Part shown: positions 22,413 through 39,892 of the stretch, in pieces | How positions within the stretch are numbered: position 1 is the first letter of the stretch | How the letters are laid out: every line of letters begins with the position of its first letter | NCBI GenBank assembly: GCA_000153445.1 | Contig: CH672399.1 | Coordinates: 113,580 to 177,579, forward strand | Origin: a gamma proteobacterium HTCC2207 | GTDB taxonomy: Bacteria > Pseudomonadota > Gammaproteobacteria > Pseudomonadales > Porticoccaceae | Direction: 5' to 3' | Length of the DNA: 64,000 nucleotides | Made by a program: the position numbers and the translations under genes | The notes under the pieces: model-generated | Told to the model about the DNA's origin: nothing | The model's input: the letters and a program-made list of their open reading frames with translations, nothing else | Database searches by the model: none

Positions 22413-22585
22413 GTCATCTCCTCTTGGCGGACAAAGCGAAGTTCCGCAGTCAGATTAATTCTTATTTTTATTGTCGGAATGGTTCGATACTAGCAGCAAC
22501 CTGAGGGTTTTTCTATGGCCGAAAAAGGCTCCTTTTTGACGTTCTAGATTAAGTGCCTAAGTCAAACAGTACAGCCAAACGCAAA

Positions 22586-22605
22586 CCAGCCCTAAAAAGG
22601 GCTGG
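22586..22605 (-). terminator. Terminator of the GH3 gene
   Basis: A perfect 7-bp stem (CCAGCCC / GGGCTGG, 6-nt loop) lies 35 nt beyond the minus-strand GH3 stop and is followed on that strand by TTTGCGTTT. The T-run is interrupted, so efficiency is uncertain. Confidence 0.65.
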
Positions 22606-22639
22606 CAGCGAGAACAAACTCTGTCAATCGGGCGAAGAC

Positions 22640-25144
22640 CTACTCACAGTTAATCGTAGACTTGTCTGAAATATCTGAGGTAATCAGAGCATCCGACAAT
22701 GTGATTGCAAAGACATCGGAGCTGGATAAAACAAATGGCGAATTCACTCTGCTGAGGTTGACGCCGACATTTTCAAAGCAACTCAACCTGACACCCATTC
22801 GGACCGCCTGCCCTTCGGGAATTTTTCGCAGGCGCGAAGTAAAATCGAACCCGCCCGAGCAGGGCCATCCGCAGTCCATACGCAGAGTCACAGGCCCTTG
22901 GGGATGCTTGTTAACCGTAAACGCTAATACCAAGGACGCGTCCTCTTCAAGCAGGGCGCTAAAATCCATAGAGGTTTCTGACTGCCAGTAAAATTGACTT
23001 TCACGTCCCTTTTTCCACTCTACCAGACGCGAGTCTTCCTGCACTGCACCATCAACCTTAGTCACCGTTAAATCGCCAAACGCACTCGAGGATTTATGAC
23101 CCTCAACCAACTTCTGCCAATTGCTCGAGTCACCAACAAACGTTTTGTAAGGTGGTTTTACACTGCCATTAAAGATAACCCGAGCTACTTTGGACACATC
23201 TAACATTGGCGTCTCGCTGAGCTTGCCGGCAAGAATTTCACCATCGCCATAACTAAGCCCCTGCCCACGAACCAATAGATTATCCCGGACTTCAAGATTT
23301 TTATTTACAGCGTTTAACTCACGGTTAGGCCAGTCAAAAGAGAGCCGACCAGTGAAGTCAAAACGTGGTTTGCCAGCCTTATCGGCCACCAATACATCGG
23401 CAATACCTACACCTTCGGAACCGGGTAACCAGGCCACAACAAAGGCATCTGAACTATTGATTTCGGCATTCACCCACAGCGGTCGCCCCGTCAAAAACAC
23501 TGCGACAACCGGAATATTCTTTCCCTTTAATGACTGCAGTAAATCGAGATCGGCTCTGTAACCATCGCGGTACATCAGTGACTCCACATCACCAACACCT
23601 TCAGCATAGGGCTCTTCGCCAAACACCACCACGGCCACATCAGGCTTTTTCACCCAGCTGTCATCAGCACTTAACTCAACCGAACCGCCATTGCTTCCAA
23701 CGGCCTGCTTGAGGCCAGTATAAATCGACGTGGCTCCCGGGAAATCGCTATTCTTGTTCTCAGTACCCTGCCAAGTAATAGTCCAGCCACCATTCTGTTT
23801 ACCGATGTTGTCAGCGCCATCACCGGTAACAAGGATATGTTGTTCGCCTTTTAAAGGCAGAAGTTGATTTTTGTTTTTCAGCAGCACCAGGGATTTGCGT
23901 ACAGCCTCGCGGGCGATCGCGCGGTGCTCAGCAGAGCCGAGAATTTTTGAGTCTCCGACTAGTGCGCGGGTCGATGGCGCACCTTTATCAAACAGACCTG
24001 CACGAACTTTTATACGCAATATACGGGTTACCGCATCATCGATCCGCGCCATAGGAATGACGCCACTCTGCACCTGTGCCAGAGTATTGCTAATGAGGTT
24101 TTTCCAGCCCTTAGGCACCATAATCAGATCGATACCGGCATTAATTGCCAGGGGACAGCTTTCGGTAGTGCAGCCTTCGACTTGACCTACACCGTCCCAA
24201 TCGCTGACCACCAAACCATCAAAGCCAAGCTGCCCTTTTAGTACGTCGGTAAGCAATTCCTTATGGCCGTGAATTTTGCGCCCATTCCAGCTATTAAATG
24301 ACACCATTACCGATTGCACATCAGCATCAAGCGCACTCAGATAACCCTGACCGTGTAACTCAAGCAGCTGATCAAATTCGAGTATGGTATTGCCCTGATC
24401 CATACCACGATAAGTACCACCGTCACCAATCCAGTGTTTGGCCGTAGCCACCACTTTTGAGGAGTCGGACCCTAACTGGCCTGGCTCACCCTGAATGCCT
24501 CTAACAATTTCACCGGCATACGCTTTAACCAGCGCAGCATCGCTACTGTATCCCTCATACGTACGTCCCCAGCGGAGGTCTTTGACCACCGCTACAGTAG
24601 GCGCAAAAACCCAGTCAATACCTGTGGCTGCCACCTCTTTGGCTGTTACTTCACCAATCTGGCGCAACAGCTGAGGATCGTTCGCCGCTCCCAAACCAAT
24701 ATTGTGCGGGAACAGCGTAGCCCCGATCACATTGTTGTGGCCGTGCACCGCATCGGTACCCCAGATAACCGGGATACCTGTGCCGCCGTTGGATAGATCA
24801 ACAGATGCGTTGTAATAATCGTCAGCAAGATCGATCCAGTCTTGGATAGCAGAGTTTTTGCGTTCACCTGGAAATGAACCGCCGCCATTGAGAATCGAAC
24901 CAATATGGTATTCTTTGACTTCGGAGGGCGAGATAAACTTAATTTCTGGCTGGATCATCTGACCCACTTTCTGTTCGACGGACATGCTTGCCAAAATTGT
25001 CGCCACACGCTTTTCAACAATTGCGGCCTTATCTGGAGCATTGAGGTCTTGAGCAACCAGCTTTACCGGCATCATAGACAATGCCAATCCAGCCACTACA
25101 GCTACCAATCCCTTCGCCAAAGCATAACGTCTGACTGTCAACAT
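22640..25144 (-). CDS. Secreted GH3 beta-glucosidase, ExoP-like
   Basis: A periplasmic exo-beta-glucosidase expected to release glucose from short beta-glucans. Order of parts: signal peptide (ends KLVAQD), GH3 N-terminal barrel with KHWIGDGGT and nucleophile D315 in VVSDWDGV, GH3 C-terminal domain with GEEPYAEGVGD, and an extra C-terminal carbohydrate-binding-like domain as in the marine ExoP enzymes. I chose the ATG at 25144 because it gives a proper signal peptide; an in-frame GTG exists at 25180. It is downstream of a LytTR two-component pair on the same strand and 3.5 kb from a TonB receptor, so it is part of a sugar-uptake locus. Confidence 0.93.
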   Translation of the reverse strand: MLTVRRYALAKGLVAVVAGLALSMMPVKLVAQDLNAPDKAAIVEKRVATILASMSVEQKVGQMIQPEIKFISPSEVKEYHIGSILNGGGSFPGERKNSAIQDWIDLADDYYNASVDLSNGGTGIPVIWGTDAVHGHNNVIGATLFPHNIGLGAANDPQLLRQIGEVTAKEVAATGIDWVFAPTVAVVKDLRWGRTYEGYSSDAALVKAYAGEIVRGIQGEPGQLGSDSSKVVATAKHWIGDGGTYRGMDQGNTILEFDQLLELHGQGYLSALDADVQSVMVSFNSWNGRKIHGHKELLTDVLKGQLGFDGLVVSDWDGVGQVEGCTTESCPLAINAGIDLIMVPKGWKNLISNTLAQVQSGVIPMARIDDAVTRILRIKVRAGLFDKGAPSTRALVGDSKILGSAEHRAIAREAVRKSLVLLKNKNQLLPLKGEQHILVTGDGADNIGKQNGGWTITWQGTENKNSDFPGATSIYTGLKQAVGSNGGSVELSADDSWVKKPDVAVVVFGEEPYAEGVGDVESLMYRDGYRADLDLLQSLKGKNIPVVAVFLTGRPLWVNAEINSSDAFVVAWLPGSEGVGIADVLVADKAGKPRFDFTGRLSFDWPNRELNAVNKNLEVRDNLLVRGQGLSYGDGEILAGKLSETPMLDVSKVARVIFNGSVKPPYKTFVGDSSNWQKLVEGHKSSSAFGDLTVTKVDGAVQEDSRLVEWKKGRESQFYWQSETSMDFSALLEEDASLVLAFTVNKHPQGPVTLRMDCGWPCSGGFDFTSRLRKIPEGQAVRMGVRLSCFENVGVNLSRVNSPFVLSSSDVFAITLSDALITSDISDKSTINCE

Positions 25145-25187
25145 TATTGACTCTACCCTATTTTTGCAACTGCGCAGCACCGGACAT

Positions 25188-25219
25188 CATCCGATCTATC
25201 ATCCGATCTATCATCCGCA
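25188..25219. repeat. 12-bp tandem repeat upstream of the GH3 gene
   Basis: CATCCGATCTAT at 25188 and again at 25200, followed by a partial third unit at 25212. It lies 44 bp upstream of the GH3 start codon, within the likely leader or promoter. Confidence 0.85.
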
Positions 25220-25386
25220 CGGTTCTTTCTGACTAATGCCAATTTTCGGGGGTTATTTGCTCCCTCTTCGTAAATCGCAGTCTTTCATGGACAGCTGTGC
25301 CGAGGGAAGATCAGATGAGATGACGCGCTTGACCGCTGCGTTGAGTGGGGCAATCAGGCTGAGAGCGGAGAAAGGTACACGGACGC

Positions 25387-26199
25387 TTAGTGGAATAAAG
25401 TGCGAATAGCTTCTCGGTAATTGCGACTTACGCGCAGAGAGTTGCCGTCGGCCAGATGCAGCAGACTGCCACCTTTTTGAAGCCTTGTGATACTCGCCAC
25501 ACGCTCAATATTCACCACGGTCGACCGATGAATACGGATAAACATTTTTTCATCGAGTTTTTCCAATAACTCACGTAACGTACTGCGCACAATATGCGTC
25601 TCACCGAGAGCGTGCACACACATATAGTCACCAGCTGCATCGACCCAATCTATATCGTCAAAAGGTACCACCTTGACCACACCGGAGTCGCGAATCAGCA
25701 GTTTTCGCTTAATGCCTTCAGGTAACTCCTCGGCCAAACTATCACTGGCCCCGGGCTCTTTATCGAGACGCTTGGTGATTTCATTGATTGCCCCAATCAG
25801 GGGAACCTTGTGAACCGTATCCTCATCTTGTACCGAAAAGCGTTCAAGTGCTCGCTGCACTGCTCGCTCGACACGTTCTGGATCCAGAGGCTTGAGCACA
25901 TAATCGACGGCATGCATATCAAAGGCATCAATCGCAAATTGGTTAAATGCCGTGGCAAAAATAACCATGGGCATGGCGTCCGACTGCATCGCCTTGACCA
26001 CTTCAAAACCATTGACACCAGGCATTTGAATATCGAGAAAGATTAAATCCGGATGCAGAGAACTCGCCGCGGCAATCGCATCGCGACCATTGCTGCACTC
26101 ACCAATTATCTCGACACCCTCAATATCACCCAGAATAGAGCGCAGAAGATCCAGAGCCAAAGGCTCATCATCAACAATAATGGTTTTTAGTTTAGACAT
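25387..26199 (-). CDS. LytTR-family response regulator
   Basis: A two-component regulator of the AlgR/LytR type. The receiver domain has acidic residues D10-D11, phospho-acceptor D56 (IFLDIQMP) and the KPLDPERV Lys. A linker (about 125-170) leads to a C-terminal LytTR DNA-binding domain (VPFDDIDWVDAAGDYMCVH, MFIRIHRSTVVNIERV). It begins 32 nt after the histidine kinase gene, so the pair is co-transcribed. The adjacency to the GH3 gene and TonB receptor suggests it controls them (inference). Confidence 0.95.
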   Translation of the reverse strand: MSKLKTIIVDDEPLALDLLRSILGDIEGVEIIGECSNGRDAIAAASSLHPDLIFLDIQMPGVNGFEVVKAMQSDAMPMVIFATAFNQFAIDAFDMHAVDYVLKPLDPERVERAVQRALERFSVQDEDTVHKVPLIGAINEITKRLDKEPGASDSLAEELPEGIKRKLLIRDSGVVKVVPFDDIDWVDAAGDYMCVHALGETHIVRSTLRELLEKLDEKMFIRIHRSTVVNIERVASITRLQKGGSLLHLADGNSLRVSRNYREAIRTLFH

Positions 26200-26231
26200 A
26201 CTGATACATTCTCACTCTTCGAAATACTGCT

Positions 26232-27392
26232 TTATCCGCCAAGCACGAGTTCAGCATTACTCTCTGCTGTCTGTTTTTCCAGCGGCAGACGAATATAAAT
26301 AGTCATGCCGCTGGCATTCGGGCCACGCAGTTCAAAAACATAGTTATCACCATAAAAGGCGCTCAATCGGTCAACCGTATTTTTCAAACCAATACCGGGC
26401 CCCGATACCATGGAATGGTGATCGCCCTCTATACCAGCACCAGTATCTTTTACTTCAATAACAAGGTGCTCCCCATCGAGCTTTGAAAAGACGCTAATCT
26501 TACCGCCTTTCTCAGCTGGAGCAATGGCATATTTGATCGCATTTTCTACCAGAGGCTGCAATAGCAGACTAGGAATCTTAATTTCATGAGCAGCGGGATC
26601 TACATCAAACTCCAATTCCAGGCGATCGGCAAAACGCGTCTTCTCAATATCAAGGTATAACCTTAACGCTCGAACCTCTTCCTCTAAGGTCACTCTTTTG
26701 ATCGGGTCATTCTCAAGTGAATAGCGTAAAAAATTGCTCAGCTGCATAATCATAGTATTGGCATTGGCCGAGCTGCGGCTAACCACTAGCGCTGAAATCG
26801 CATTTAATGTGTTAAACAAAAAATGAGGATTAAGCTGATAGCGCAGCATTTTTAGCTGTGCTTCCTGCGCAAACGTTTCAGCGCGACTGCGCTTCAATTG
26901 CTCTTCCTTATTCTCGGCGGCAAAATGAAGCAGCGCCTCGTGCTCAGACTGTAATAACTGATAATATTTGATGCCGTGATAAAACGCCGCCCAGCATAAG
27001 AAAATCATAATCGAACCAAATAGCCAACCGCCAAAGTCTGCCCAGACATCGGTCTCAGTCGTCATCCACAAAAAAGCTCCTATGCGCAGAGCCGACCAAA
27101 TAATGGAGCAGGCCAAAACCGACAGCACTGTCAACAGTAGACGCGACAGCAGTGGCTTGTTCCACAGATAGTGAAACACTGACCGCAATGGCCAAGATAC
27201 GGCCACACCCAAGACAGACTGCAATAGAGTGTGCGAGATATAGGCAAAGCTCTGCTGGTTGTACCACAGTGTCAAACTAAAAAAGCTTATCAGAGAAAGG
27301 CTAAACCATCCGAGGATCTGCAGAAATAGAAACTGAGTGTTACGATCTCGATAGAGCCTCCCAAGCCAGGGATTCACAGTAGTCTGATTCAT
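26232..27392 (-). CDS. LytS/YehU-type sensor histidine kinase
   Basis: Inner-membrane sensor kinase of 386 residues. Four membrane segments (about residues 22-45, 52-75, 82-110 and 122-140) leave no sizeable periplasmic sensor domain, so it probably senses within the membrane or through another protein. The His_kinase motif RYQLNPHFLFNTLNA gives phosphorylated H190. The ATPase domain has LVENAIKYAI and DTGAGIEGDHHSMVSGPGIGL. Partner of the LytTR regulator immediately downstream. Confidence 0.95.
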   Translation of the reverse strand: MNQTTVNPWLGRLYRDRNTQFLFLQILGWFSLSLISFFSLTLWYNQQSFAYISHTLLQSVLGVAVSWPLRSVFHYLWNKPLLSRLLLTVLSVLACSIIWSALRIGAFLWMTTETDVWADFGGWLFGSIMIFLCWAAFYHGIKYYQLLQSEHEALLHFAAENKEEQLKRSRAETFAQEAQLKMLRYQLNPHFLFNTLNAISALVVSRSSANANTMIMQLSNFLRYSLENDPIKRVTLEEEVRALRLYLDIEKTRFADRLELEFDVDPAAHEIKIPSLLLQPLVENAIKYAIAPAEKGGKISVFSKLDGEHLVIEVKDTGAGIEGDHHSMVSGPGIGLKNTVDRLSAFYGDNYVFELRGPNASGMTIYIRLPLEKQTAESNAELVLGG

Positions 27393-27552
27393 ATATATGC
27401 CTATAAGTGCTGCCGTATTCTTCAGCGTCTTTGGAACAGCCTTCCATCATAGAGATTTACCGTAAAAAGACAAATCGCAACATTATCCAATCACCGGTTT
27501 CGTTTACTGCTAGAATTTCTGTTCAAATCGACCCTAACATCGACTCAAGCCT

Positions 27553-28182
27553 ATGACTTCAAGTTCACAGCCAAAATCTCATACAGTGTCATATATGAAC
27601 ATCGAAGCACTCAAGGCGTCGCACCCCGGCGTGAGAAGGCTCAAGCGTCAACAGTCTCACGCGGCTCATGGCAACAAAGTTTGGCGCTCAAGCTTTGTTT
27701 TAATCGACTATTTAAGTACCTGGGAGATTCCCGACCGCTCTAAGGTCTTAGATATTGGCTGCGGCTGGGGGCTAACTGGAATCTATCTGGCAAAAAATTA
27801 TCAGGCGCAGGTCACTGGAGTGGATATAGATGCCAGCGTTGAGCCTTTCCTAAAACTCCAGGCGAGTATCAATCAATGCAGCGTTGAATTTCAACAGCGC
27901 AGTTTCGAGTCGCTACAAAATGACGAGCTGACCCAATTGCACACTCTGATGGGCACAGATATCTGCTTCTGGGATGAAATGACCACTCCGCTATTCAAGC
28001 TTATTCAGCGAGCTCGTGCGGCCGGTGTCGAACAGGTGCTGATTGCCGACCCAGGCAGGCCGCCATTCTGGGATCTCGCCGATCGCTGCGTTGAGCTGCT
28101 AGGCGCCGAGGTGATATCGCGGAGAATCGATCATCCCTGGAAGACCGAAAAGTATATTCTCGCCATCGGCGGACGCGACTGA
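27553..28182 (+). CDS. Class I SAM-dependent methyltransferase
   Basis: A 209-residue methyltransferase. Motif I is VLDIGCGWGLTGIYLAKN, followed by VTGVDID for the ribose-binding acidic residue, and a C-terminal region with VLIADPGRPPFWDLADRC. This layout resembles the small ETFB-lysine or FkbM-unrelated protein methyltransferases; the target cannot be told from sequence. The ATG at 27553 begins MTSSSQPKSH; an internal ATG (MNIEALK) 14 codons on is a possible start. It is divergent from the histidine kinase gene. Confidence 0.88.
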   Translation: MTSSSQPKSHTVSYMNIEALKASHPGVRRLKRQQSHAAHGNKVWRSSFVLIDYLSTWEIPDRSKVLDIGCGWGLTGIYLAKNYQAQVTGVDIDASVEPFLKLQASINQCSVEFQQRSFESLQNDELTQLHTLMGTDICFWDEMTTPLFKLIQRARAAGVEQVLIADPGRPPFWDLADRCVELLGAEVISRRIDHPWKTEKYILAIGGRD

Positions 28183-28633
28183 CTGGCTAACCATTCTGAC
28201 AAAAGATCGACGCCCGATTTAACGCAAAAACGGTAAGTCGCTCTTGGCTAACATATTCTCTTGCAGACTCTAGTGAAAAAAAACAAAACCGAGTTACATT
28301 CCAACTGAGAGCGGCCTTATATAAAGTAGTCGGCAGATCTCACGAATGCCCGCTTTAAAGGCTACTCAAAGACCACATAAGCCCCACTCAATTAGTCCCA
28401 TAACTTTGCGCCCAACGGGGCACTTTATGACTCGTGAAGTGCAGGCTAAATCACCTTAGACAAGGATACGGCAGGTGATGCCCTCCTTAACCTCAAAAAA
28501 TTAACCGTTTAACTCATATAAGTTGTTTGCCGGCCATGAAAAGGTAGAGTACCGATGGGGACGTAGTAAATATAAAAAGCGACAGCTAACCTATGTTCAT
28601 AGATTTTTTTGTTTACCCAGGGGGTTAATCAGT
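28183..28633 (+). promoter_or_regulatory. Long leader of the TonB receptor gene
   Basis: About 450 bp separate the methyltransferase stop from the receptor start codon, the longest gene-free stretch in the window. It contains a perfect 7-bp inverted repeat ATCACCT/AGGTGAT (28450-28456 with 28473-28479) and a GCCCC/GGGGC pair at about 28380-28425. A T-rich run follows a short CTATG/CATAG repeat near 28591-28610. I recognise no known riboswitch. It presumably carries the promoter for the receptor-halogenase operon. Confidence 0.5.
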
Positions 28634-31591
28634 ATGTTATTTAAAAAGAAAATTCTTTCTAGCAGTGTTGCCTTAGCGCTAGTTGGAGCGGCTATTCCAG
28701 CTTACGCACAAGATGGCGTGCTAATCGAGGAAGTGATTGTTCAAGGCGGTATCCGCGGAAGCCTTACGCGCTCCATGGACGTCAAGCGTGACTCGGCTGG
28801 TGTTGTAGACGCAATCTCAGCGGAAGATATGGGTAAGTTCCCAGACGCTAACTTGGCAGAATCTCTGCAGCGTATCACTGGTGTTTCCATCAACCGCCAA
28901 CGCGGTGAAGGCAGCCAGGTTACAGTTCGCGGCTTCGGCCCCGAGTACAACCTAGTGACCTTAAATGGTCGTCAAATGCCTACTCACAGTAACACTAGTC
29001 GTTCTTTTGACTTTGGTGATCTGGCCTCCGAAGGCATTGCCGGTGTACAGGTGTACAAAACAGGCCGCGCCGATGTCCCAACCGGTGGTATCGGCTCATT
29101 AATCAATATCTCAACCACTCGTCCTCTTGAGAGCCCAGGCCAAACCGCCAGCTTCTCAGCAAAACTGGTTAACGACACATCGACTAGAGAAGGCGATGAA
29201 ATTACCCCAGAATTCTCTGGAATTTACTCCAACACATTTGCCAATGACACAATTGGCATTGCGATCACTGCAACATCACAGACGCGTAATAATGGCGTTA
29301 ACGCAGCAGAGACTACAGGTTGGTTTACCAATCCAGGAGATTACTCCGGAGCCCGCGGCGTCCCCAACGATGCTAACCAGGTTAACCGCTCTACAAGCGA
29401 CGCTGAGTTCTATTCTATTCCCCAGCAGCTCGCCTACTCGATTAGTGAGTACGAGTCTAAGCGAATTAATGGACAGCTCGTTTTACAGTGGGCCCCAACT
29501 GACACTATCACCGGCACATTAGATTACATCCACTCAGAACTAGACCTTGATCACACGATGAGCGACATGTCTGCTTGGTTTAGCAACGCTAATGCATCGA
29601 GCCAAACAAGCCTTTGGAATGATGGCGAGCAGCGCTCTCCCCTGATGTACTCCGAAACACACGATAACGCTGACTTTGCGATGGGTGTGCACGAAATGGG
29701 TCGCAAAAACGAGAATTCCTCTGTTGGCTTAAACCTCGAATGGCAAGCGTCAGATCGTCTCAACATTGCGTTGGACTACCACGATTCATCAGCAGAGACT
29801 GGCGCCAACACCCCTTATGGCACCAGCTCACTGGTAACTATGGCATCCTTTAACAAGGTTGGCTCTACAGTTTTCTACGATACTGAACTACCAATCCTCT
29901 CTCAGAACCTGAACTCAGGTGCTGATGGTGCTGATCGTCCACTCTACAAGAACGACATGATTATCACTGGTAGCGTATTTAGCAACGAAGCAGCCAAGAT
30001 GGACATCGAGCAAGCCAAACTTAGCGGTGTCTTCGAATTATCGGAAAGCACCAGCATCGATTTTGGTGTACAGCTAACCGAAGTAAGCAACCGCTTTGTC
30101 AGCAGCAATGTTCAGCTTGACAACTGGGGCGGCTTTACTCAGCCAGGCGAACTAACCGATATTCTGACTCGCTCTTCGATCGCAGGACAGTTCGATCAGG
30201 TCGACGGTGGCAATGACCCACGTCTGCACACTGAATACTTCACCACGTCTCTTGAAGAAATAATCAGCGTTGGCGAAGCAAGCTACACTGCCCGCGGCGC
30301 AGATTACGCTGCTGTTGGAGATTGTGGCACTGGATATTGTGCATCTACCGACTGGACCGTAGACAAGCGCACTACAGAAGAAACGTCATCAGCGTATATT
30401 CAACTGAACAGCGCTCTGGAATACTATGACATGCCGGTTAACCTGCAAGTTGGTCTTCGCTATGAAGAAACTGACGTTACTTCTGCAGCTCTTGCTCCAA
30501 CTTATGACGAAGTCTTCTGGTTGGGCGGTAATGAGTTCACTATGGTTGCAGCAGTGGACGAAAATGGCGATCCAATTCAGGCATTTGACGACTACGTTGG
30601 CGATTACTCCTTACTTCTGCCAAGTATCGACATGGATATTGAAGTAGCAGAAAACGTGATTGTGCGCGCTTCATACAGCCAAACAGCGACACGTCCAAGC
30701 TTCACCGATGTTCAAGGCGGCATTACAGTTGGCGGCACTTCGTTTAAGAATGACGGCGGTTTTGCTAACGGTGGTAACCCAGGTCTGATACCTATTGAGT
30801 CAGACAACTATGACGTCTCTGTTGAATGGTACTACGATGAAGGCAGCTACCTCTCGGTAGGCTACTTTGAGAAAAGCGTAGCTAACTTTATCGGCTCGTC
30901 AGTTCGCAAGGGTGAGACGCTGTTTAACCTGAACTTCCCACTTGAAGGAGCGCTGTTTAACCAAGCGGTTGCGGATAGCGGCATAGACCCACTGAAGTAC
31001 AGCGAAGTTGGTGCCTATATCCTAGCCAACTATCCGGACAACGCAGCAATTGACGGCGATCGTATCTACGGCGTAGACGGTGACCCATTGGTAACCTTCC
31101 AGATCACTAGCCCGGCAAACCAAGAAAATGCATCGGTTGATGGCGTTGAAATCAACCTGCAGCACAACTTCGGTGAGACTGGCTTCGGTATGATTGCCAA
31201 CGCTACCTTCGTTAATGCTGACGTTGCCTATAACAACATGCAGATCGACTCACAGTTTGTACTTAACGGCTTGAGCGACTCGGCTAACTTGGTTGCGTTC
31301 TACGACAAAGACGGCTTGCAGGCGCGCTTAGCCTACAACTGGCGTGATGAGTTTCTCGCCGGCGTTGGTCAGGGTGCAGGTACCACCACTAACCCTACTA
31401 ATGTGGAAGCCTACGGTCAGCTGGATATAAGTGCTAGTTACGACTACAGCGACAACCTAACGATCTTCTTCGCCGGACTTAATGTCCTTGAAGAGACTTA
31501 CAACGTCTACGGTCGCGACGAACTGCAAGTATTGCAGGCTGGTCAGACTGGTGCTCGTTACGACATCGGCGTACGTTACAGCTTTAAGTAA
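28634..31591 (+). CDS. TonB-dependent receptor, carbohydrate type
   Basis: Outer-membrane active transporter of about 985 residues, of the Proteobacterial receptor subfamily that imports oligosaccharides. A signal peptide ends at AYAQ, a TonB box-like segment follows (VLIEEVIVQGG), then the plug (AISAEDMGKFPDANLAESLQ, GSQVTVRGFGPEYN, RADVPTGGIGSLINI) and a 22-strand barrel ending in Phe-Lys. The ATG at 28634 with GGGGG upstream gives the signal peptide; the frame is open further upstream from a TTG at 28523. It leads the halogenase/SapC/cupin group and is followed by a hairpin. Confidence 0.96.
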   Translation: MLFKKKILSSSVALALVGAAIPAYAQDGVLIEEVIVQGGIRGSLTRSMDVKRDSAGVVDAISAEDMGKFPDANLAESLQRITGVSINRQRGEGSQVTVRGFGPEYNLVTLNGRQMPTHSNTSRSFDFGDLASEGIAGVQVYKTGRADVPTGGIGSLINISTTRPLESPGQTASFSAKLVNDTSTREGDEITPEFSGIYSNTFANDTIGIAITATSQTRNNGVNAAETTGWFTNPGDYSGARGVPNDANQVNRSTSDAEFYSIPQQLAYSISEYESKRINGQLVLQWAPTDTITGTLDYIHSELDLDHTMSDMSAWFSNANASSQTSLWNDGEQRSPLMYSETHDNADFAMGVHEMGRKNENSSVGLNLEWQASDRLNIALDYHDSSAETGANTPYGTSSLVTMASFNKVGSTVFYDTELPILSQNLNSGADGADRPLYKNDMIITGSVFSNEAAKMDIEQAKLSGVFELSESTSIDFGVQLTEVSNRFVSSNVQLDNWGGFTQPGELTDILTRSSIAGQFDQVDGGNDPRLHTEYFTTSLEEIISVGEASYTARGADYAAVGDCGTGYCASTDWTVDKRTTEETSSAYIQLNSALEYYDMPVNLQVGLRYEETDVTSAALAPTYDEVFWLGGNEFTMVAAVDENGDPIQAFDDYVGDYSLLLPSIDMDIEVAENVIVRASYSQTATRPSFTDVQGGITVGGTSFKNDGGFANGGNPGLIPIESDNYDVSVEWYYDEGSYLSVGYFEKSVANFIGSSVRKGETLFNLNFPLEGALFNQAVADSGIDPLKYSEVGAYILANYPDNAAIDGDRIYGVDGDPLVTFQITSPANQENASVDGVEINLQHNFGETGFGMIANATFVNADVAYNNMQIDSQFVLNGLSDSANLVAFYDKDGLQARLAYNWRDEFLAGVGQGAGTTTNPTNVEAYGQLDISASYDYSDNLTIFFAGLNVLEETYNVYGRDELQVLQAGQTGARYDIGVRYSFK

Positions 31592-31628
31592 CCCGCCATA
31601 GTGAGAAATCACTAGTATGATGAAAACG

Positions 31629-31658
31629 GAAGCCGCTTAAAGTATTTTGAGCGGCTTC
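31629..31658 (+). terminator. Hairpin after the TonB receptor gene
   Basis: A perfect 9-bp stem, GAAGCCGCT (31629-31637) with AGCGGCTTC (31650-31658), is followed by TTTC, 37 nt beyond the receptor stop codon. It may terminate or attenuate, giving the receptor higher expression than the downstream halogenase genes. Confidence 0.8.
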
Positions 31659-31799
31659 TTTCATTGCGCCGTATATAATGAGTTGGATTGTATTAATGCG
31701 GTCATGCTTTTATCAAAACAGGAAAGCGGATAAGGTTAATAGAGAAAGTCCAGATCTAGACAATCAGATTTTTCAATAGTAAAAAAGTAACTGAAGCCC

Positions 31800-33377
31800 A
31801 TGAATCATAAAATCAATAGAGTAGTGATAGTTGGTGGCGGCACAGCGGGCTGGTTAAGCGCGGGTATAATTGCTGCTGAGCACTGTATTGGAACCAAAAC
31901 TAGTAGCCCTGAGAATCCTTTCCAGCTAACTCTGGTGGAGTCACCAGATATTGCTACCATTGGCGTTGGCGAAGGCACCTGGCCTTCCATGCGCAGCACC
32001 CTGCAAAAGATGGGTATTTCAGAAACAGACTTTTTTCGTGAGTGCAGCGCAAGCTTTAAGCAAGGCACCTTATTTAAAGGCTGGCGTACGGGCGCAGACG
32101 ATATCTATACTCATCCTTTTACCCCACCTCAAGGTTATACCGAGGTCAATCTGGCACCCCACTGGCAGACTGCACGCGAGCAGATCAACTTTGCTCAGGC
32201 AGTGTCACCACAGAGCGCCCTGTTTACAGATAAGCTAGCCCCAAAACAAATTTCAACACCGGAATACGCCTTTAACGTCAATTACGGTTACCATCTGGAT
32301 GCAGCAAAATTTGCCGAATTCCTGCGTAAACACTGTGTCGAAAAACTCGGCGTCACCCATATAAAGGCCAATGTTACCGGGATCAACTCTGCGGACAATG
32401 GCGACATAGCTTCCATAGCCACAGACAGTCACGGCACTATCGAAGGGGAACTTTTTATCGACTGCAGTGGTTCAAGAGCCCTGCTGATAGGTGAGCACTT
32501 CGGCATCCCAGTGTGCAGCAAGAGTGATATTCTTTTCAATAACACGGCCCTGGCGGCGCAAATTCCCTACACTCATGAAAACGACCCGATTGAGTCTTGC
32601 ACGCTTTCGACAGCCCAATCTGCTGGCTGGATATGGGAAATTGGCTTGCCCACAAGACGCGGTATCGGTCATGTGTATTCCAGCGACCACAACACCGAAG
32701 AGCGTGCCAGTGAAGAGCTGCTGGCCTATATAGCCAGCACGGTCAGCGATCAAGCGGCAGCGGCTGCAACACTGCGCAAGGTGAAATTTAGCCCCGGTCA
32801 TCGGGCAAAGTTTTGGCATAAAAACTGTGTGGCCATAGGCATGTCTGCTGGATTTATCGAACCTTTAGAGGCCTCAGCACTGGTATTAGTAGAACTCTCT
32901 GCGGCAATGATCGCCGAGCAGTTACCCGCCAATCGTCAGATTATGGATCTGGTTGCCAAACGCTTTAATGACAAATTTTTATATCGCTGGGATCGCATCA
33001 TTGAGTTTCTTAAGTTGCACTATATTCTCACCCAGCGCAGAGACACAGAGTACTGGCGTGATAACTGCGAATCCTCAAGCGTGCCAGAACAGTTAGTCGA
33101 TTTACTCGCCCTCTGGCGTCATCAGAGCCCATGGCATCGCGACAACAATAATGTTGACGATATGTTTCCATCGGCGAGCTTTCAATATGTTATCTACGGC
33201 ATGGATTTTGAGACCATGCCGAGCCAAACTCAGCGCCGCTCAGAGTTAGCCGAGCGACAGCGAGCAGGCGCCCTGTTTCAAGAAAATGCAACGCGCACTC
33301 AACAGTTGCAGACTTCTCTTCCGAGTAATCGCGACCTGATCAACAAAATTTATACCTTCGGGTTTCAAAAAATATAA
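31800..33377 (+). CDS. Flavin-dependent halogenase-family protein 1
   Basis: A tryptophan-halogenase-family FAD enzyme (525 residues). The FAD motif GGGTAGW starts at residue 12, and the candidate catalytic Lys is K87 in SFKQGTLFKGW. The IDCSGSRALL and FIEPLEASAL stretches are also typical. The family motif WxWxIP is altered: residues 277-284 read WIWEIGLP, with Gly in the Pro place. The protein is expected to need reduced FAD from a partner reductase, none of which is nearby. It lies 140 nt beyond the receptor terminator and is followed 56 nt later by sapC. Substrate unknown; free tryptophan is unlikely given the sugar-uptake context. Confidence 0.9.
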   Translation: MNHKINRVVIVGGGTAGWLSAGIIAAEHCIGTKTSSPENPFQLTLVESPDIATIGVGEGTWPSMRSTLQKMGISETDFFRECSASFKQGTLFKGWRTGADDIYTHPFTPPQGYTEVNLAPHWQTAREQINFAQAVSPQSALFTDKLAPKQISTPEYAFNVNYGYHLDAAKFAEFLRKHCVEKLGVTHIKANVTGINSADNGDIASIATDSHGTIEGELFIDCSGSRALLIGEHFGIPVCSKSDILFNNTALAAQIPYTHENDPIESCTLSTAQSAGWIWEIGLPTRRGIGHVYSSDHNTEERASEELLAYIASTVSDQAAAAATLRKVKFSPGHRAKFWHKNCVAIGMSAGFIEPLEASALVLVELSAAMIAEQLPANRQIMDLVAKRFNDKFLYRWDRIIEFLKLHYILTQRRDTEYWRDNCESSSVPEQLVDLLALWRHQSPWHRDNNNVDDMFPSASFQYVIYGMDFETMPSQTQRRSELAERQRAGALFQENATRTQQLQTSLPSNRDLINKIYTFGFQKI

Positions 33378-33433
33378 CCACTGGGCCTCTTACCACTTAA
33401 CCTCAGGGGCCTCAGAACTATGCTGGAGTAAGC

Positions 33434-34177
33434 ATGAGCAACTACACAATCCTCAATAACAATGTTCACAAAGATCTTAGGGTGAACACCATGAGAAGCG
33501 CAGAGTACGGCGATAACATTATGTACACCATGACGTTTCCTATGGAGTTTAGAGATATCCAGTCGTGCTACCCGATCTTCTTTTGCAAAGACCCAGAATC
33601 TGGGCAGCTCTACCCCGCTGCCCTACTCGGCTTTGAGCAGGATCAAAATCTGTTCCTTAGCGACAGCGGATGGGACGCGACTTACATACCATTGATGGTT
33701 CGCCGTCACCCTTTCCTGATCGGCTTTCAAGCGGATCCAGACGGCGCTGAAGGCGCTACCAAGCCGGTAGTGTCGATTGACTCTGATAGCCCACGTTTGA
33801 TTGAAGCGAGCGGCGACGATAGCCAAGAAGGCGAAGCACTGTTTAAACAAGATGGCACGCCAAGTGATTTTTTACAGACCAGCATAGGTACATTGGAGTC
33901 CATTCATCGCGGTCTAGAACACAATAAAGGCTTTATAGCAGCACTGCTTGAACATGAGTTGCTCGAGTCCTTTAGCCTGGAAATAACCCTCAACGATGGT
34001 TCAAATAACCAGCTGATGGGTTTCTACACAATCGCTGAAGAAAAACTCCAGTCATTGGACGGCGAAACACTAGCCAAATTTAATACTCAGGGTTACCTGC
34101 AGTCTATCTATATGGCGATTGCCTCATTCGCACGTCTGCGCCCAATGATCGATAAGAAAAATGCCCAGCTGGGATAG
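33434..34177 (+). CDS. SapC-family protein
   Basis: A 247-residue protein of the SapC family, named for a Campylobacter S-layer-associated protein. It starts YTILNNNVHKDLRV and has the typical PMEFRDIQSCYPIFFCKD and RRHPFLIGF stretches. No signal peptide or membrane segment is visible, so it is probably cytoplasmic. In many Proteobacterial sugar-receptor loci SapC lies between halogenase-like and cupin genes, as here; its molecular role is unknown. Confidence 0.9.
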   Translation: MSNYTILNNNVHKDLRVNTMRSAEYGDNIMYTMTFPMEFRDIQSCYPIFFCKDPESGQLYPAALLGFEQDQNLFLSDSGWDATYIPLMVRRHPFLIGFQADPDGAEGATKPVVSIDSDSPRLIEASGDDSQEGEALFKQDGTPSDFLQTSIGTLESIHRGLEHNKGFIAALLEHELLESFSLEITLNDGSNNQLMGFYTIAEEKLQSLDGETLAKFNTQGYLQSIYMAIASFARLRPMIDKKNAQLG

Positions 34178-34230
34178 CCCTGTGCTCAGGGAACCATTTA
34201 CATACAGGCTGGTACATAAGGTGAGTGACT

Positions 34231-35244
34231 GTGCTTGAAATTAAAACAGCGGTGAGAGAGATCGACGGCTGCAAGGCCGATTCGATTCCCCATGAGGTGT
34301 TGACGTCCAGCCAGCCATTATTGCTGCGTGGTCTGGTTTCTGACTGGCCCCTGGTTACCGCGGCAAAAAACTCCCACACAGAAGCGGCTGACTATCTGCT
34401 GTCTTTTGATAGCGGCAAGCCTTTGACCGCTATGGTCGGTGATGCCTCGATAAAAGGGCATATTTTCTACAACAGCGAGCTCAGTGGCTTCAACTTTGAC
34501 TATCAGCGCTTGCACCTAGCAGAGGTGCTAGAGCAGCTTGCCACGCACAGAGATTCCAGCGCCCCACCGACATTCTATGTGGGCTCCACCAATGTCGACC
34601 ACTGGCTCCCAGGATTTCGACAACACAATGACCTCAATCTGACAGATCACAAGCCCATTGCTAGCGTCTGGATCGGTAACCGCAGTCGTATATCGGCGCA
34701 CTATGATTTCCCAACGAATATTGCCTGCTGCGCAGCTGGACGGCGGCGCTTTACCCTCTTCCCCCCAGACCAGCTTAAGAATCTCTATGTGGGCCCTATA
34801 GATGTCACCCCAGCTGGACAGCCTATTAGCCTGGTGGATTTTAACGATCCCGACTACCGGCGCTTTCCCAAATTTCGTCAGGCTTTAGAGTCAGCACAGG
34901 TAGTTGAGCTGGAGCCCGGCGACGCCATCTTAATTCCCAGTATGTGGTGGCATCATGTGGAAGCCCTTGAACCTCTCAATGTATTGGTTAATTACTGGTG
35001 GCGCGACACGCCCACTTTTCTAGGCGGCCCATTAAATGTTCTGCAGCACGGTATTCTCGGCTTGCGCGATCTGCCACCAGAACAGCGCGAAGTGTGGAAG
35101 CAGTTATTTGACTACTATGTGTTTAACCCGGATCCAGAGCATGTAGCTCATATACCCGAGCAGGCCCGTGGCGTGCTAAATAAAATCGACGACGTCACGG
35201 CAAAAAAGATCCGCAATATGCTGGCGCAAAAACTCGGCCACTAA
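34231..35244 (+). CDS. Cupin-8 / JmjC-like Fe(II) oxygenase
   Basis: A 337-residue JmjC/FIH-like cupin, probably a 2-oxoglutarate- and Fe(II)-dependent hydroxylase. The HxD metal pair is H157 and D159 (SAHYDFPTN), and the distal His lies in WWHHVEAL (H241 or H242). The segment RRFTLFPPDQLKNLY is typical of the family. The GTG at 34231 has AAGG at good spacing and is preferred over the GTG at 34225. It lies between sapC and halogenase 2, all on one strand with short gaps, so operon membership is clear. Confidence 0.9.
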   Translation: MLEIKTAVREIDGCKADSIPHEVLTSSQPLLLRGLVSDWPLVTAAKNSHTEAADYLLSFDSGKPLTAMVGDASIKGHIFYNSELSGFNFDYQRLHLAEVLEQLATHRDSSAPPTFYVGSTNVDHWLPGFRQHNDLNLTDHKPIASVWIGNRSRISAHYDFPTNIACCAAGRRRFTLFPPDQLKNLYVGPIDVTPAGQPISLVDFNDPDYRRFPKFRQALESAQVVELEPGDAILIPSMWWHHVEALEPLNVLVNYWWRDTPTFLGGPLNVLQHGILGLRDLPPEQREVWKQLFDYYVFNPDPEHVAHIPEQARGVLNKIDDVTAKKIRNMLAQKLGH

Positions 35245-35267
35245 ATTAGATTATTGGAGAACCGATA

Positions 35268-36758
35268 ATGACCGATAAAAATATCACCAAGGTAGTGGTC
35301 GTCGGCGGCGGCACCGCAGGTTGGATGGCCGCGGCCTCCCTATCCAAGCTGATTGGACCCAATATTCGAGTCTGCGTAGTCGAGTCTGATGAAATCGGCA
35401 CCGTGGGTGTTGGCGAAGCCACCATTCCGACTATGATGACGCTCCACCAACTGCTTAAGATTGACCAGCCTGAGTTTATGGCTGCGGTTCAGGGTACCTT
35501 TAAACTGGGGATTAATTTTGAGAACTGGAATAAGCTCGGCGACAGCTATATGCACGCCTTTGGACGCACCGGCCAGGACTGCTGGGCAGGCGGTTTTCAG
35601 CACTTTTGGACTAGAGGTAAGGAACTAGGCATTAGTGAAGGCTACGGCCGCTACAGCGCCTCCTACGTGGCTGCAAAGGCAGGGAAATTTGCCGTGTTAC
35701 CAGACCATAGCCTCAGCTATGCCTTTCATATGAATGCCACACTGTATGCCAAGTTTTTGCGCAATATGGCCGAAAAACATGGTTGTGAGCGTGTTGAAGG
35801 CAAGATTACTCAGGTCAATACTCACAGTGATAGCGGTTACATAGATAGTATCACTCTTGAGTCTGGCCAAAAGATAGAGGGCGATCTATTTGTTGACTGC
35901 AGTGGCTTTCGCGGCCTTTTGATCGATGAAACCCTGCAAACCGAATACGAAGATTGGTCCAACTGGCTGCCCTGCGATAGCGCCGTAGCCGTGCAAACTG
36001 AATCCGTCGGTGAACCGATTCCCTACACCAGAGCCATAGCGCGCGATGCCGGCTGGCAGTGGCGTATCCCACTGCAGTCGCGAGTCGGTAATGGCATGGT
36101 GTTCTGCAGCAAGTATCTGTCCGATGACGAAGCTGTAGACAGTCTCTTAAAGAATGTCGAGGGGACTCCTCTGACCAAACCACGAATAATTAAATTCCGC
36201 ACTGGCCAGCGCAAGCAGCACTGGAATAAAAACTGCATTGCCCTAGGTCTCGCCAGCGGCTTTGTTGAACCGCTAGAATCCACTAGTATCCACCTTATTC
36301 AGCGTGGCATTATTCGTCTGTTACAGATGTTCCCCCACCAGGGTATATGTCAGCCGGATGTGGTTGAATTCAATCGGCAGATGAGCGATGAGTTTGTGTT
36401 TGTGCGGGACTTTATCGTAATGCATTATCACCTCACTGAGCGCGACGACACGCCGTTTTGGCGTCACTGTCAGTCAATGCCCATTCCCGATGGTCTGCGT
36501 CACCGTCTCGATTTATTTAAACAGACTGGCCGGGTCTTTCAGGAGGCCGGAGATGTATTTGCCGAAAATAACTGGGTGCAGGTGATGCTCGGCCAAGGTT
36601 TACTGCCAGAGCAATACCATCCAATTGTCGACAGTATGAGTGAGGCTGAACTGGATAACTTCTTGAAAGGATTAGCTGGCAATATCGATCATCTTGTAAA
36701 TCAGCTGCCCAGTCATCAGAGCTTTGTCTCAAACTACTGCCCGGCCGACTCAGTATAA
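35268..36758 (+). CDS. Flavin-dependent halogenase-family protein 2
   Basis: A 496-residue tryptophan-halogenase-family protein with all canonical motifs: FAD motif GGGTAGW at residues 13-19, candidate catalytic K79 in GTFKLGINFENW (same number as in PrnA and RebH), WQWRIP at 263-268, and FVEPLESTSIHL. It is 23 nt downstream of the cupin gene and ends the operon. It is clearly paralogous to halogenase 1 but keeps the intact WxWxIP motif, so it is the better candidate for real halogenating activity. Substrate unknown. Confidence 0.92.
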   Translation: MTDKNITKVVVVGGGTAGWMAAASLSKLIGPNIRVCVVESDEIGTVGVGEATIPTMMTLHQLLKIDQPEFMAAVQGTFKLGINFENWNKLGDSYMHAFGRTGQDCWAGGFQHFWTRGKELGISEGYGRYSASYVAAKAGKFAVLPDHSLSYAFHMNATLYAKFLRNMAEKHGCERVEGKITQVNTHSDSGYIDSITLESGQKIEGDLFVDCSGFRGLLIDETLQTEYEDWSNWLPCDSAVAVQTESVGEPIPYTRAIARDAGWQWRIPLQSRVGNGMVFCSKYLSDDEAVDSLLKNVEGTPLTKPRIIKFRTGQRKQHWNKNCIALGLASGFVEPLESTSIHLIQRGIIRLLQMFPHQGICQPDVVEFNRQMSDEFVFVRDFIVMHYHLTERDDTPFWRHCQSMPIPDGLRHRLDLFKQTGRVFQEAGDVFAENNWVQVMLGQGLLPEQYHPIVDSMSEAELDNFLKGLAGNIDHLVNQLPSHQSFVSNYCPADSV

Positions 36759-36827
36759 GTTACCCAGTAATACCAATTAGCTCTACGATGCCCTGACAAT
36801 AGACACCGACTTAACATTTAACAGACG

Positions 36828-36862
36828 AAAAAAAACCGCACTGATTGCAGTGCGGTTTTTTT
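36828..36862. terminator. Bidirectional terminator
   Basis: A perfect 8-bp stem CCGCACTG (36836-36843) with CAGTGCGG (36848-36855) is flanked by A8 on the left and T7 on the right. It therefore works on both strands, ending the halogenase operon and the convergent lipoprotein gene. Confidence 0.93.
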
Positions 36863-36883
36863 GTATTGCTAGTTAGTAGCTTA

Positions 36884-39361
36884 TTACTGCTTCACAAAAT
36901 CATATGACCAGTAGACACCGTCACCCGCTACAACTTCAACAGATAAGAAATCACTCTCAATGATCAATACAGTATAAGTAACCGACTCAGGCGCATCAGA
37001 AGGCGATGCGAGCTCAGAACCGTTAACCACTTTGGCCAGACCTAGATGTGCACCTTTACCGTTTAAGGTAAGAGTACCTGCAGCTTCATCATAGACAGAC
37101 GATGCAGCAATGCTGCCATCATGCGGTGCAACAGGAGTAGCACAACCATCGGCTGCAGCGCCCTGCCAAGCTTCAACCCAAGTGGCATCGCCCATTTGGT
37201 TAGCAAAGGAGCCATCGGCACCAATGACAAACGCGTCGTCAAACAGACAGGGACGGGCTGCAACATCAGCGTCAGTGCTGCGATTGAGGGCAAACCACTC
37301 TCGGCTACCAGAACTAGGACCTACGCCAGCTGCGTCAAGTACCCATTTACCTTCAAGTACCGAAGATGAAGCGTCGGGAGTATCTGTGGTATCGGCATCT
37401 TTAACCAGATCATAAGACCAGTAGACGCCGTCACCTGCTACAACCTCAACAGATAGGAAATCACCATCAAAAGTCAACACGGTATAAGTAACCGACTCAG
37501 GCGCATCAGAAGGCGATGCGAGCTCAGAACCGTTAACCACTTTGGCCAGACCTAGATGTGCGCCTTTACCGTTTAAGGTAAGAGTTCCTGCAGCTTCATC
37601 ATAGACAGACGATGCAGCAATGCTGCCATCATGCGGTGCAACAGGAGTAGCACAACCATCGGCTGCAGCGCCCTGCCAAGCTTCAACCCAAGTGGCATCG
37701 CCCATTTGGTTAGCAAAGGAGCCATCGGCACCAATGACAAACGCGTCGTCAAACAGACAGGGACGGGCGGCAACATCATCGGCACTGCTGCGATTGAGGG
37801 CAAACCACTCTCGGCTGCCAGAACTAGGACCTACGCCAGCTGCGTCAAGTCTCCAAGTACCTGCCAACGCAGACGGTTGATCTTTAACCAGATCATAAGA
37901 CCAGTAGACGCCGTCACCTGCTACAACCTCAACAGATAGGAAATCACCATCAAAAGTCAACACGGTATAAGTAACCGACTCAGGCGCATCAGAAGGCGAT
38001 GCGAGCTCAGAACCGTTAACCACTTTGGCCAGACCTAGATGTGCGCCTTTACCGTTTAAGGTAAGAGTTCCTGCAGCTTCATCATAGACAGACGATGCAG
38101 CAATGCTGCCGTCATGCGGTGCAACAGGCGTTAAACAAGCGCCTTCACCAGCATCGGCATTCTGCCAACCTTCAACCCAAGTCGTGTCGCCCATTTGGTT
38201 AGCAAAGGAGCCATCGGCACCAATGACAAACGCGTCGTCAAACAGACAGGGACGGGCGGCAACATCATCGGCACTGCTGCGATTGAGGGCAAACCACTCT
38301 CGGCTGCCAGAACTAGGACCTACGCCAGCTGCGCCAAGTCTCCAAGTACCTGCCAACGCAGACGGTTGATCTTTAACCAGATCATAAGACCAGTAGACGC
38401 CGTCACCTGCTACAACCACAACAGATAGGAAATCACCATCAAAAGTCAATACGGTGTAAGTAACCGACTCAGGCGCTTCAGAGGGCGATGCGAGTTCAGA
38501 GCCGTTAACTACTTTGGCCAGACCCAGATGTGCACCTTGACCATTTAAAGTAAGAGTCGCTGCAGCTTCATCATAGACATACGATGCAGCAATGCTGCCA
38601 TCATGGGGCGCGACAGGCGTTAAACAAGCGCCTTCACCGGCTTCAGTATCTTGCCAACCTTCAACCCAAGTCGTGTCGCCCATTTGGTTAGCAAAGGAGC
38701 CATCGGCACCCAATACAAACGCGTCATCGAACAAACAGGGACGGGCGGCAACATCATCGGCATTGCTACGATTGAGGGCAAACCACTCTCGGCTGCCTGC
38801 AGCTGGACCTACGCCAGCTGCGTCAAGACGCCAAGTACCAGTTAGAGAAATTGGCTCTGGCTCTACACAACCCTCTGCGCAGTATTCAACAGCACTTTCG
38901 TCGGTGGTTGCAGTACCTGCAACACCCTCAACACCGCTAATATCGGTATAAGTAATTGTAAAGTCGACTACGCCGTCCATATCGAGTTCGGTCATCTCGC
39001 GAACAGCAGTCCAATCACCAATCTTACCGTTAACATCTGCGGCAAAGCCACCGATGGTAACCTCAGGCCGCATGAGGCCTTCGCTGGCTTCAAAGGTCAC
39101 AGTAATAGAATCGCCGAGTTTAGCCGTTCCGTCTGCAGAACCATTTCTAGTCTTGGACTGCTTGATCGAAACATTCAAAAGAGTTGGCGCAATGCCATCT
39201 GGACCTGGGTCTGCAGCAGGATTGTCAGTAACAGTGCTGCCACCGCCACCACAAGCCGTAAGAATTAAAGAAAGAGACAGCGCGAGGATCGCACCGAAAT
39301 GATTTGTTTGTCGCAATCCACTGATCCGACTGAGACTGCTTAAAAGCGATCTATATTGCAT
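36884..39361 (-). CDS. Lipoprotein with four near-identical tandem domains
   Basis: A secreted lipoprotein of about 825 residues. The ATG at 39361 has AGGGGGAAGT upstream and gives a signal peptide ending in the lipobox LTAC followed by GGGG; the frame is open further to 39454. An N-terminal Ig-like part (about residues 35-165, with SIKQSKTRNGSADGTAKLGDSITVTFEAS-type sequence) precedes four domains of about 160 residues. Each runs from GTWRLDAAGVGP to GVYWSYDLVKD and contains SREWFALNRS, RPCLFDDAFV, TPVAPHDGS and GAHLGLAKVVNG. I recall similar domains in marine Bacteroidetes laminarinases and sugar-binding lipoproteins (unverified). Convergent with the halogenase operon. Confidence 0.85.
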   Translation of the reverse strand: MQYRSLLSSLSRISGLRQTNHFGAILALSLSLILTACGGGGSTVTDNPAADPGPDGIAPTLLNVSIKQSKTRNGSADGTAKLGDSITVTFEASEGLMRPEVTIGGFAADVNGKIGDWTAVREMTELDMDGVVDFTITYTDISGVEGVAGTATTDESAVEYCAEGCVEPEPISLTGTWRLDAAGVGPAAGSREWFALNRSNADDVAARPCLFDDAFVLGADGSFANQMGDTTWVEGWQDTEAGEGACLTPVAPHDGSIAASYVYDEAAATLTLNGQGAHLGLAKVVNGSELASPSEAPESVTYTVLTFDGDFLSVVVVAGDGVYWSYDLVKDQPSALAGTWRLGAAGVGPSSGSREWFALNRSSADDVAARPCLFDDAFVIGADGSFANQMGDTTWVEGWQNADAGEGACLTPVAPHDGSIAASSVYDEAAGTLTLNGKGAHLGLAKVVNGSELASPSDAPESVTYTVLTFDGDFLSVEVVAGDGVYWSYDLVKDQPSALAGTWRLDAAGVGPSSGSREWFALNRSSADDVAARPCLFDDAFVIGADGSFANQMGDATWVEAWQGAAADGCATPVAPHDGSIAASSVYDEAAGTLTLNGKGAHLGLAKVVNGSELASPSDAPESVTYTVLTFDGDFLSVEVVAGDGVYWSYDLVKDADTTDTPDASSSVLEGKWVLDAAGVGPSSGSREWFALNRSTDADVAARPCLFDDAFVIGADGSFANQMGDATWVEAWQGAAADGCATPVAPHDGSIAASSVYDEAAGTLTLNGKGAHLGLAKVVNGSELASPSDAPESVTYTVLIIESDFLSVEVVAGDGVYWSYDFVKQ
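36887..38850 (-). repeat. Four tandem ~485-bp coding repeats
   Basis: Units lie at about 38370-38850, 37881-38369, 37398-37880 and 36887-37360. The same junction sequence (TTAACCAGATCATA) recurs at 37401, 37884 and 38373, giving periods of 483 and 489 bp. Long stretches of the middle units are identical at DNA level, including third codon positions, so the duplications are recent or kept uniform by gene conversion. Confidence 0.9.
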
Positions 39362-39567
39362 ACTTCCCCCTAAATAACTTCTTTTATAATTCTTGGAACC
39401 TTTTACGGCTTCTACAGAATTTCGAATCGTAATTCTCTGCGCCCTTCCCTTCAAGCTCCAGTCTTAAACGGCGAAGGGGGATTATTATGCGATAAAGAGG
39501 CGATTGTTCTTTAAGAAGGGGCCTAAGGAAGAGTATTGCGAAGTTTAGGGCGGATTTGTTTCAAATA

Positions 39568-39888
39568 TTAATCTGTTTCTTTAGTACCTCGGCACTGAGG
39601 AGAGCTTGGTGCCTGCCCTTGAGCCTCAGCCCATTCATCGCCGCTGTAAGTGTGTAGTGCCAGAGCATGAATAGGCCCAGACAGTTCCTCGGCCAACAGC
39701 TTGTAAATCGCCTGATGACGCTGTACCTGGCGCTGGCCAGCAAACTGGTCGGTCACCAGCACCACTTTAAAGTGAGTCTCAGATCCTGCAGGCACAGAGT
39801 GCATATAGCTCTCATTTGTGACCTGCAAAACCTCGCTCTCAAACTGACCAACGAGCTTATCGGTAACAATCTGCTCAACGGGACCCAT
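39568..39888 (-). CDS. BolA-family protein
   Basis: A BolA-like protein of 106 residues. It has the compact fold markers VLQVTNESYMHSVPAGSETHFKVVLVTD (in pieces) and the conserved RHQAIYKLLAEEL helix and HALALHTYSGDEW end. BolA proteins bind monothiol glutaredoxins with Fe-S clusters or DNA. The ATG at 39888 lies 4 nt after the oadB stop, so it is the last gene of the oad operon. The C-terminal tail after the domain is unusual in ending with a Cys-containing low-complexity segment. Confidence 0.9.
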   Translation of the reverse strand: MGPVEQIVTDKLVGQFESEVLQVTNESYMHSVPAGSETHFKVVLVTDQFAGQRQVQRHQAIYKLLAEELSGPIHALALHTYSGDEWAEAQGQAPSSPQCRGTKETD

Positions 39889-39892
39889 CGAC

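Follow-up and report, generated by a model that had tools for sequence, protein, structure and literature searches.

A TonB-dependent receptor lineage accompanied by two halogenase-family proteins, SapC and a cupin oxygenase

Genes for two proteins of the flavin-dependent halogenase family (H1 and H2), a SapC protein and an FIH-like cupin stand in a conserved module behind one kind of TonB-dependent receptor gene, and within one clade of our receptor tree 100 of 101 receptors adjoin such a module. That the module is so strictly tied to the receptor points to an action on the receptor itself or on something that the receptor handles. The enzymes and regulators encoded next to the module vary from locus to locus while the module stays constant, and thus its function appears to follow the receptor rather than any one catabolic enzyme.

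In the window, i.e., the whole stretch of 64,000 nucleotides that was analysed, the five genes of the operon are intact and lie on the plus strand in the order receptor, H1, SapC, cupin and H2; every gene named in the first-pass annotation was recovered as an intact open reading frame. The receptor (28634-31591) is of the TonB-Xanth-Caul type, with a TIGR01782 score of 615 bits compared with the curated cut-off of 310, and contains Plug and barrel domains as well as an N-terminal signal peptide. Its AF2 model (pLDDT 85) has the TonB-receptor fold. On the basis of upstream conservation, its true start was placed at the ATG at 28634, inside a longer reading frame that begins at 28523. The receptor gene is followed by those for H1 (31800-33377; PF04820, 384 bits), SapC (33434-34177; PF07277, 222 bits, cut-off 28.9), the Cupin_8 protein, an FIH/JmjC-like Fe(II)/2-oxoglutarate oxygenase (34225-35244; PF13621, 248 bits), and H2 (35268-36758; PF04820, 624 bits). 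As judged from the translations, all four of these proteins are devoid of a signal peptide.

Just past the stop codon of the receptor gene is a terminator- or attenuator-like hairpin with a 14-bp stem (31628-31658, plus strand; fold z -3.3 for the intergenic stretch), which is unique in the window. Counting stem lengths against mononucleotide shuffles, we found a stem of at least 9 bp after the receptor in 57 of 89 module loci, with a median length of 11 compared with 2.5 in the shuffles. The probable effect of the hairpin is that the enzymes are expressed at a lower level than the receptor. Nothing in Rfam matched positions 22000-40000.

The genome to which the window belongs comprises 2.63 Mb in six contigs. 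Its SapC is 91% identical to that of MOLA455, which we take to be a SAR92 strain, and to that of a Porticoccaceae MAG, which places the host in the SAR92 clade of the Porticoccaceae; SAR92 strain H231 is also among the genomes matched by this SapC. Four halogenase-family genes are present in the genome, spread over two modules. The second module (C5:473-481 kb; locus L111, G000:C5:468000-487900) has the order receptor-SapC-cupin-H2-H1 and has diverged, with 39-52% identity between the two copies in every gene. In SAR92 genomes, this second module has its own GH3 gene close by. Other genomes, too, carry separate modules for separate receptors.

Loci were gathered by SapC similarity (80 named loci), by family searches in 56 relatives and 232 genomes of the class, and by receptor similarity only in 195 genomes of the order. 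Together, the module set was found in 94 distinct receptor-led loci, mostly from Gammaproteobacteria, including Oxalobacteraceae. The order receptor-H1-SapC-cupin-H2 occurs in 41 of the 94 modules and the same order followed by a DUF6445 gene in 20; minor variants include receptor-SapC-cupin-H2-H1 in six loci and a receptor followed only by H2 in three. Because most loci were found through SapC, complete modules are over-represented in these counts. The receptor-led search, which is free of that bias, recovered the module beside almost every one of the closest receptors. Among the carriers are Porticoccaceae, Arenicella, Shewanella, Colwellia, Thalassotalea and Paraglaciecola, as well as Microbulbifer, Rheinheimera, Steroidobacter and Duganella, and neighbouring SapC-H2 pairs also occur beyond the class of the window, within the phylum. 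Gaps inside the module are short (medians 12, 27 and 42 bp), as in a tight operon. Among the 232 sampled genomes of the class, 13 have a TIGR01782 receptor and 14 a full-length halogenase, and nine have both (Fisher p about 3e-10). Based on the recurrence of the gene order across families and on this co-occurrence, the grouping is far beyond chance. The conserved linkage of receptor, halogenase, SapC, cupin and halogenase on which the first-pass annotation had staked its proposal is thus borne out in relatives.

The receptor tree was computed from 144 receptors with FastTree, which gave a warning on long branches. The single receptor of the main clade with no adjoining module lies at a contig end, and further linkages occur elsewhere in the tree. 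Other receptor lineages have reduced sets, e.g., H1-SapC, or only H2 next to GH13 enzymes. The linkage label requires at least nine changes on the tree, so that the association must have been gained or lost several times. Pairwise distances between receptors correlate with those between module proteins (r 0.70-0.88), a correlation that is explained equally by shared operon descent and by functional coupling.

Among linked receptors, several aromatic positions hardly vary. Trp352 (W352, numbered from the ORF start at 28523) first seemed invariant and was then rejected as a module-specific tryptophan: it is kept in the nearest unlinked receptors (L241-L243), absent from the linked receptor L235 and missing in most receptors that have H2 beside GH13 enzymes. 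In the main clade, W535 and W940 track the joint presence of H2 and SapC; among the GH13-type receptors they do not. The residue comparison thus yielded no clearly module-specific tryptophan, which lowers our confidence in the receptor as substrate, one of the targets that the first-pass annotation had suggested. One receptor with no adjacent module (L213, G274:C7) has W352, W535 and W940 in common with linked receptors, and its genome holds modules elsewhere.

H2 retains the GxGxxG motif, the catalytic lysine, the WxWxIP motif (as WxWRIP) and the glutamate, all of which are also kept in most of 93 homologues. Its nearest solved structures are 6Y1W, which we take to be Xcc4156, 9LUQ and 6FRL. 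The last of these is BrvH from Brevundimonas BAL3, which has the same motifs and the same short, open loop; H2 and BrvH align free of gaps across the short substrate loop, where PrnA has an insertion. By sequence, H2 is a member of the BrvH/Xcc4156 group, with a short loop and a predicted open substrate site. The first-pass annotation had pointed to bromide-preferring halogenases, and H2 does group with the bromide-preferring BrvH and with Xcc4156. The BrvH gene, too, adjoins a second halogenase gene. In BrvH, contacts to the indole ring are kept, those to the amino and carboxyl groups of tryptophan are absent and the site is open; the enzyme prefers bromide and brominates indole, not tryptophan, with slow halogenation of free indole in vitro (PMC5945002). 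The site was likened by the authors to that of MibH, which chlorinates tryptophan only in a peptide (PMC5945002). The substrate site of MibH is open, as in BrvH, and its substrate is a lanthipeptide. No gene for a precursor peptide was identified at our locus, where small ORFs were covered only unsystematically.

In H1, compared with 79 homologues, the GxGxxG motif and the catalytic lysine and glutamate are likewise kept. In place of WxWxIP, the H1 of the window has WIWEIG, and most of the 79 homologues have WxWDIG or WxWDIA. The replacement of WxWxIP by WxWDIG is a signature of a separate halogenase-like subfamily comprising H1 and its homologues. The nearest solved structures are 2PYX (607 bits), 9LTB and 9LU2. 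The closest of them, 2PYX, is presumably a halogenase-like protein from Shewanella frigidimarina for which we know of no function, and a genome of S. frigidimarina holds the whole module (L088). Weak matches to QhpG and LodB were obtained for both H1 and H2, and to GoxB for H2 only.

The metal triad of the cupin, HxD...H, is intact (H159, D161 and H243) and conserved in homologues. The nearest solved relatives are the protein hydroxylases FIH and JMJD5, which have the same Fe(II) triad; the sequence match to them covers the C-terminal part of the catalytic domain only. In about a quarter of the modules, a DUF6445 protein (PF20043) is encoded downstream of H2 as a frequent fifth enzyme (L063-L107). 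Its conserved residues, HFD, a distal His and an Arg, are as expected of a second 2-oxoglutarate oxygenase, to which family we would assign it.

SapC has a confident AF2 model (pLDDT 94), for which no match to a PDB or viral protein was found at E<=0.001. A search for a link to phages found neither SapC nor close relatives of H1 in viral contigs, the latter with a single-protein query that detects close relatives only. Outside the module, SapC genes adjoin giant adhesin-like ORFs (1200-3200 residues) at 21 of 38 loci, compared with 27 of 1514 background genes; a Fisher test against a smaller background (20/451) gave p about 1e-15, where the loci are not phylogenetically independent and the link is a correlation. 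Genes for a ShlB/FhaC-type transporter, or for SecA-like and HlyD-like proteins, are found near some of these non-module loci. The loci with adhesin-like neighbours are L113, L147, L151-L155, L159-L163, L168, L169, L172, L176, L177, L180, L182, L183 and L186. SapC takes its name from sapCDEF, the S-layer locus of C. fetus (PMC4943207). Given this origin and the adjacency to adhesin-like ORFs, the partners that SapC has in common across these settings are large exported surface proteins, and the link to adhesins would give a first handle on a family of hitherto unassigned function.

Our favoured, though tentative, reading is that the module is a companion system that acts on the receptor or on a co-exported protein. 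One TonB receptor would be co-transcribed with cytoplasmic enzymes that have no signal peptide. SapC may help by presenting the substrate, aromatic side chains of the indole type would be halogenated or oxygenated by H2 and H1, and hydroxylation would fall to the FIH-like cupin. The likeliest substrate would be a protein that the operon itself encodes or that is exported together with its product, foremost the receptor precursor while still in the cytoplasm. The terminator-like hairpin would keep the enzymes scarcer than the receptor, and the modification could alter the glucan binding or the durability of the receptor. Several pieces of evidence lead us to favour a companion system: the nearly complete linkage in one receptor clade, with more linkages elsewhere; the two receptors of one genome, each with its own diverged module; the tightness of the operon; the constancy of the module while neighbouring enzymes and regulators change; the BrvH-like loop of H2, given that the BrvH site is open and MibH-like (PMC5945002); the protein hydroxylases FIH and JMJD5 as the nearest solved relatives of the cupin; and the surface-protein genes that SapC adjoins elsewhere. 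Against it, W352 is not module-specific, co-inheritance of receptor and module is expected from any shared pathway, and free indole is halogenated by BrvH in vitro, albeit slowly. A bolder proposal, which we consider unlikely, is that dedicated, co-encoded enzymes brominate and hydroxylate aromatic residues of the TonB receptors of one clade while these are still in the cytoplasm, SapC being a general helper for exported surface proteins.

The first-pass annotation had instead treated the module as part of a glucan-scavenging locus under LytTR control. Upstream of the receptor, on the minus strand, are genes for an exported GH3 beta-glucosidase with an Exop_C domain (22640-25180; Pfam), a LytTR response regulator (25387-26199; Pfam) and a LytS-type sensor kinase (26232-27392; His_kinase and HATPase_c). 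All three are neighbours; the GH3 gene is no fixed part of the module, and the regulator gene travels with it. That they form one unit with the module is very improbable. The genes are adjacent in the window and in two close relatives, but the LytS-LytTR-GH3 cassette, which is present in all 14 SAR92 genomes examined and whose LytTR and GH3 orthologues are mutually adjacent in most of them, adjoins the module in three of the 14 (G000, G002 and G415), lies 11 kb from it in G023 and is located elsewhere, unlinked, in 10. At other loci LacI or AraC genes are found in its place: LacI-type regulator genes are near 24 of 87 module loci, LytTR genes near eight and AraC genes near seven. Moreover, the region upstream of the receptor is equally conserved with or without an adjacent LytTR gene, and a search there with a LytTR-box consensus gave no match, only imperfect GTT repeats. 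LytTR control is therefore unsupported as a general trait of the module; the cassette forms a unit of its own, and LytTR regulation is incidental to the lineage of the window. The glucan side of the proposal stands on better ground. When co-occurrence with GH families is scored, as that annotation had asked, beta-glucan enzymes (GH3, GH1 or GH16) prove strongly enriched beside the module, being encoded near 47 of 87 module loci versus 1 of 18 unlinked TIGR01782 receptors. Many copies of the module thus have a genuine connection to glucans. In the carbohydrate utilisation (CUT) loci of TonB receptors, a receptor likewise stands beside GH genes, sugar transporters and a regulator; as far as we know, the CUT definition includes no halogenases, SapC or hydroxylases. 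In many SAR92 relatives, a gene for an RPE65-family dioxygenase replaces GH3 beside the module (L038, L040, L042, L044, L045, L049, L120, L121, L126 and L136).

A serious rival close behind the companion reading, though somewhat unlikely when taken by itself, is that the module processes a small aromatic compound imported by the receptor, or an aromatic substituent on an imported glycan, for breakdown or detoxification by oxygenation and halogenation. Enzymes encoded next to a receptor frequently process what that receptor imports, many of the module loci have beta-glucan genes nearby, and the substrate brominated by BrvH is free indole rather than tryptophan (PMC5945002). However, the module remains constant where its neighbours shift from GH3, GH1 or GH16 to other genes, and halogenases without SapC are found beside GH13 receptors. 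Laminarin-type glucans are not known to have an aromatic part, and among the annotated neighbour families, which are a minority of clusters, the only ring-cleavage family is the RPE65-type dioxygenase of some SAR92 loci. Production of a halogenated small molecule, a signal or deterrent switched on with the receptor when sugar is plentiful, seems distinctly unlikely. It would fit the classical role of flavin-dependent halogenases in tailoring small natural products, and the bromide preference of BrvH fits sea water (PMC5945002), but the annotated neighbours include no recognisable scaffold gene of the NRPS, PKS or any other type, and separate diverged copies for each receptor are unexpected for one diffusible product. 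We consider it improbable that the halogenase-like proteins, H1 above all, are flavin monooxygenases or redox helpers that do not halogenate in the cell. H1 does depart from WxWxIP, a conserved halogenase motif (PMC5945002), and the weak matches are to flavoenzymes that oxidise protein residues (QhpG, LodB and, for H2 only, GoxB); however, the lysine and glutamate of the mechanism are conserved in both H1 and H2, and halogenase activity has been shown for their near relative BrvH (PMC5945002).

If, as in the companion reading, the receptor is the substrate, the module would represent a new level at which ocean bacteria control their uptake of glucans, and the receptor would be, to our knowledge, the first halogenated outer-membrane protein. 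The operon link to one receptor clade, together with the hydroxylases and SapC, makes concrete the question of the natural substrate of BrvH, which was left open (PMC5945002). In a literature search we found no paper linking a halogenase, a TonB receptor and SapC, nor one describing a receptor-SapC-cupin context; papers with both halogenase and TonB treat other contexts (e.g., PMC11337851). The gene families are known already, and their joint role is the new question.

Two further genes flank the operon. Between the kinase and the receptor is a gene for a small class I SAM methyltransferase-like protein (27553-28182, plus strand; Pfam), which was absent from the gene list of the first-pass annotation and is found in a few close relatives only (cluster 32, four loci). 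Downstream of H2, on the minus strand, is a gene for a lipoprotein (36884-39361) whose lipobox and four repeats were read from the translation. It is mainly a SAR92 neighbour of the module (cluster 16, eight loci), with a single weak Pfam match (FKBP-like_N, 30 bits) and a sub-cut-off NCBIfam repeat match.
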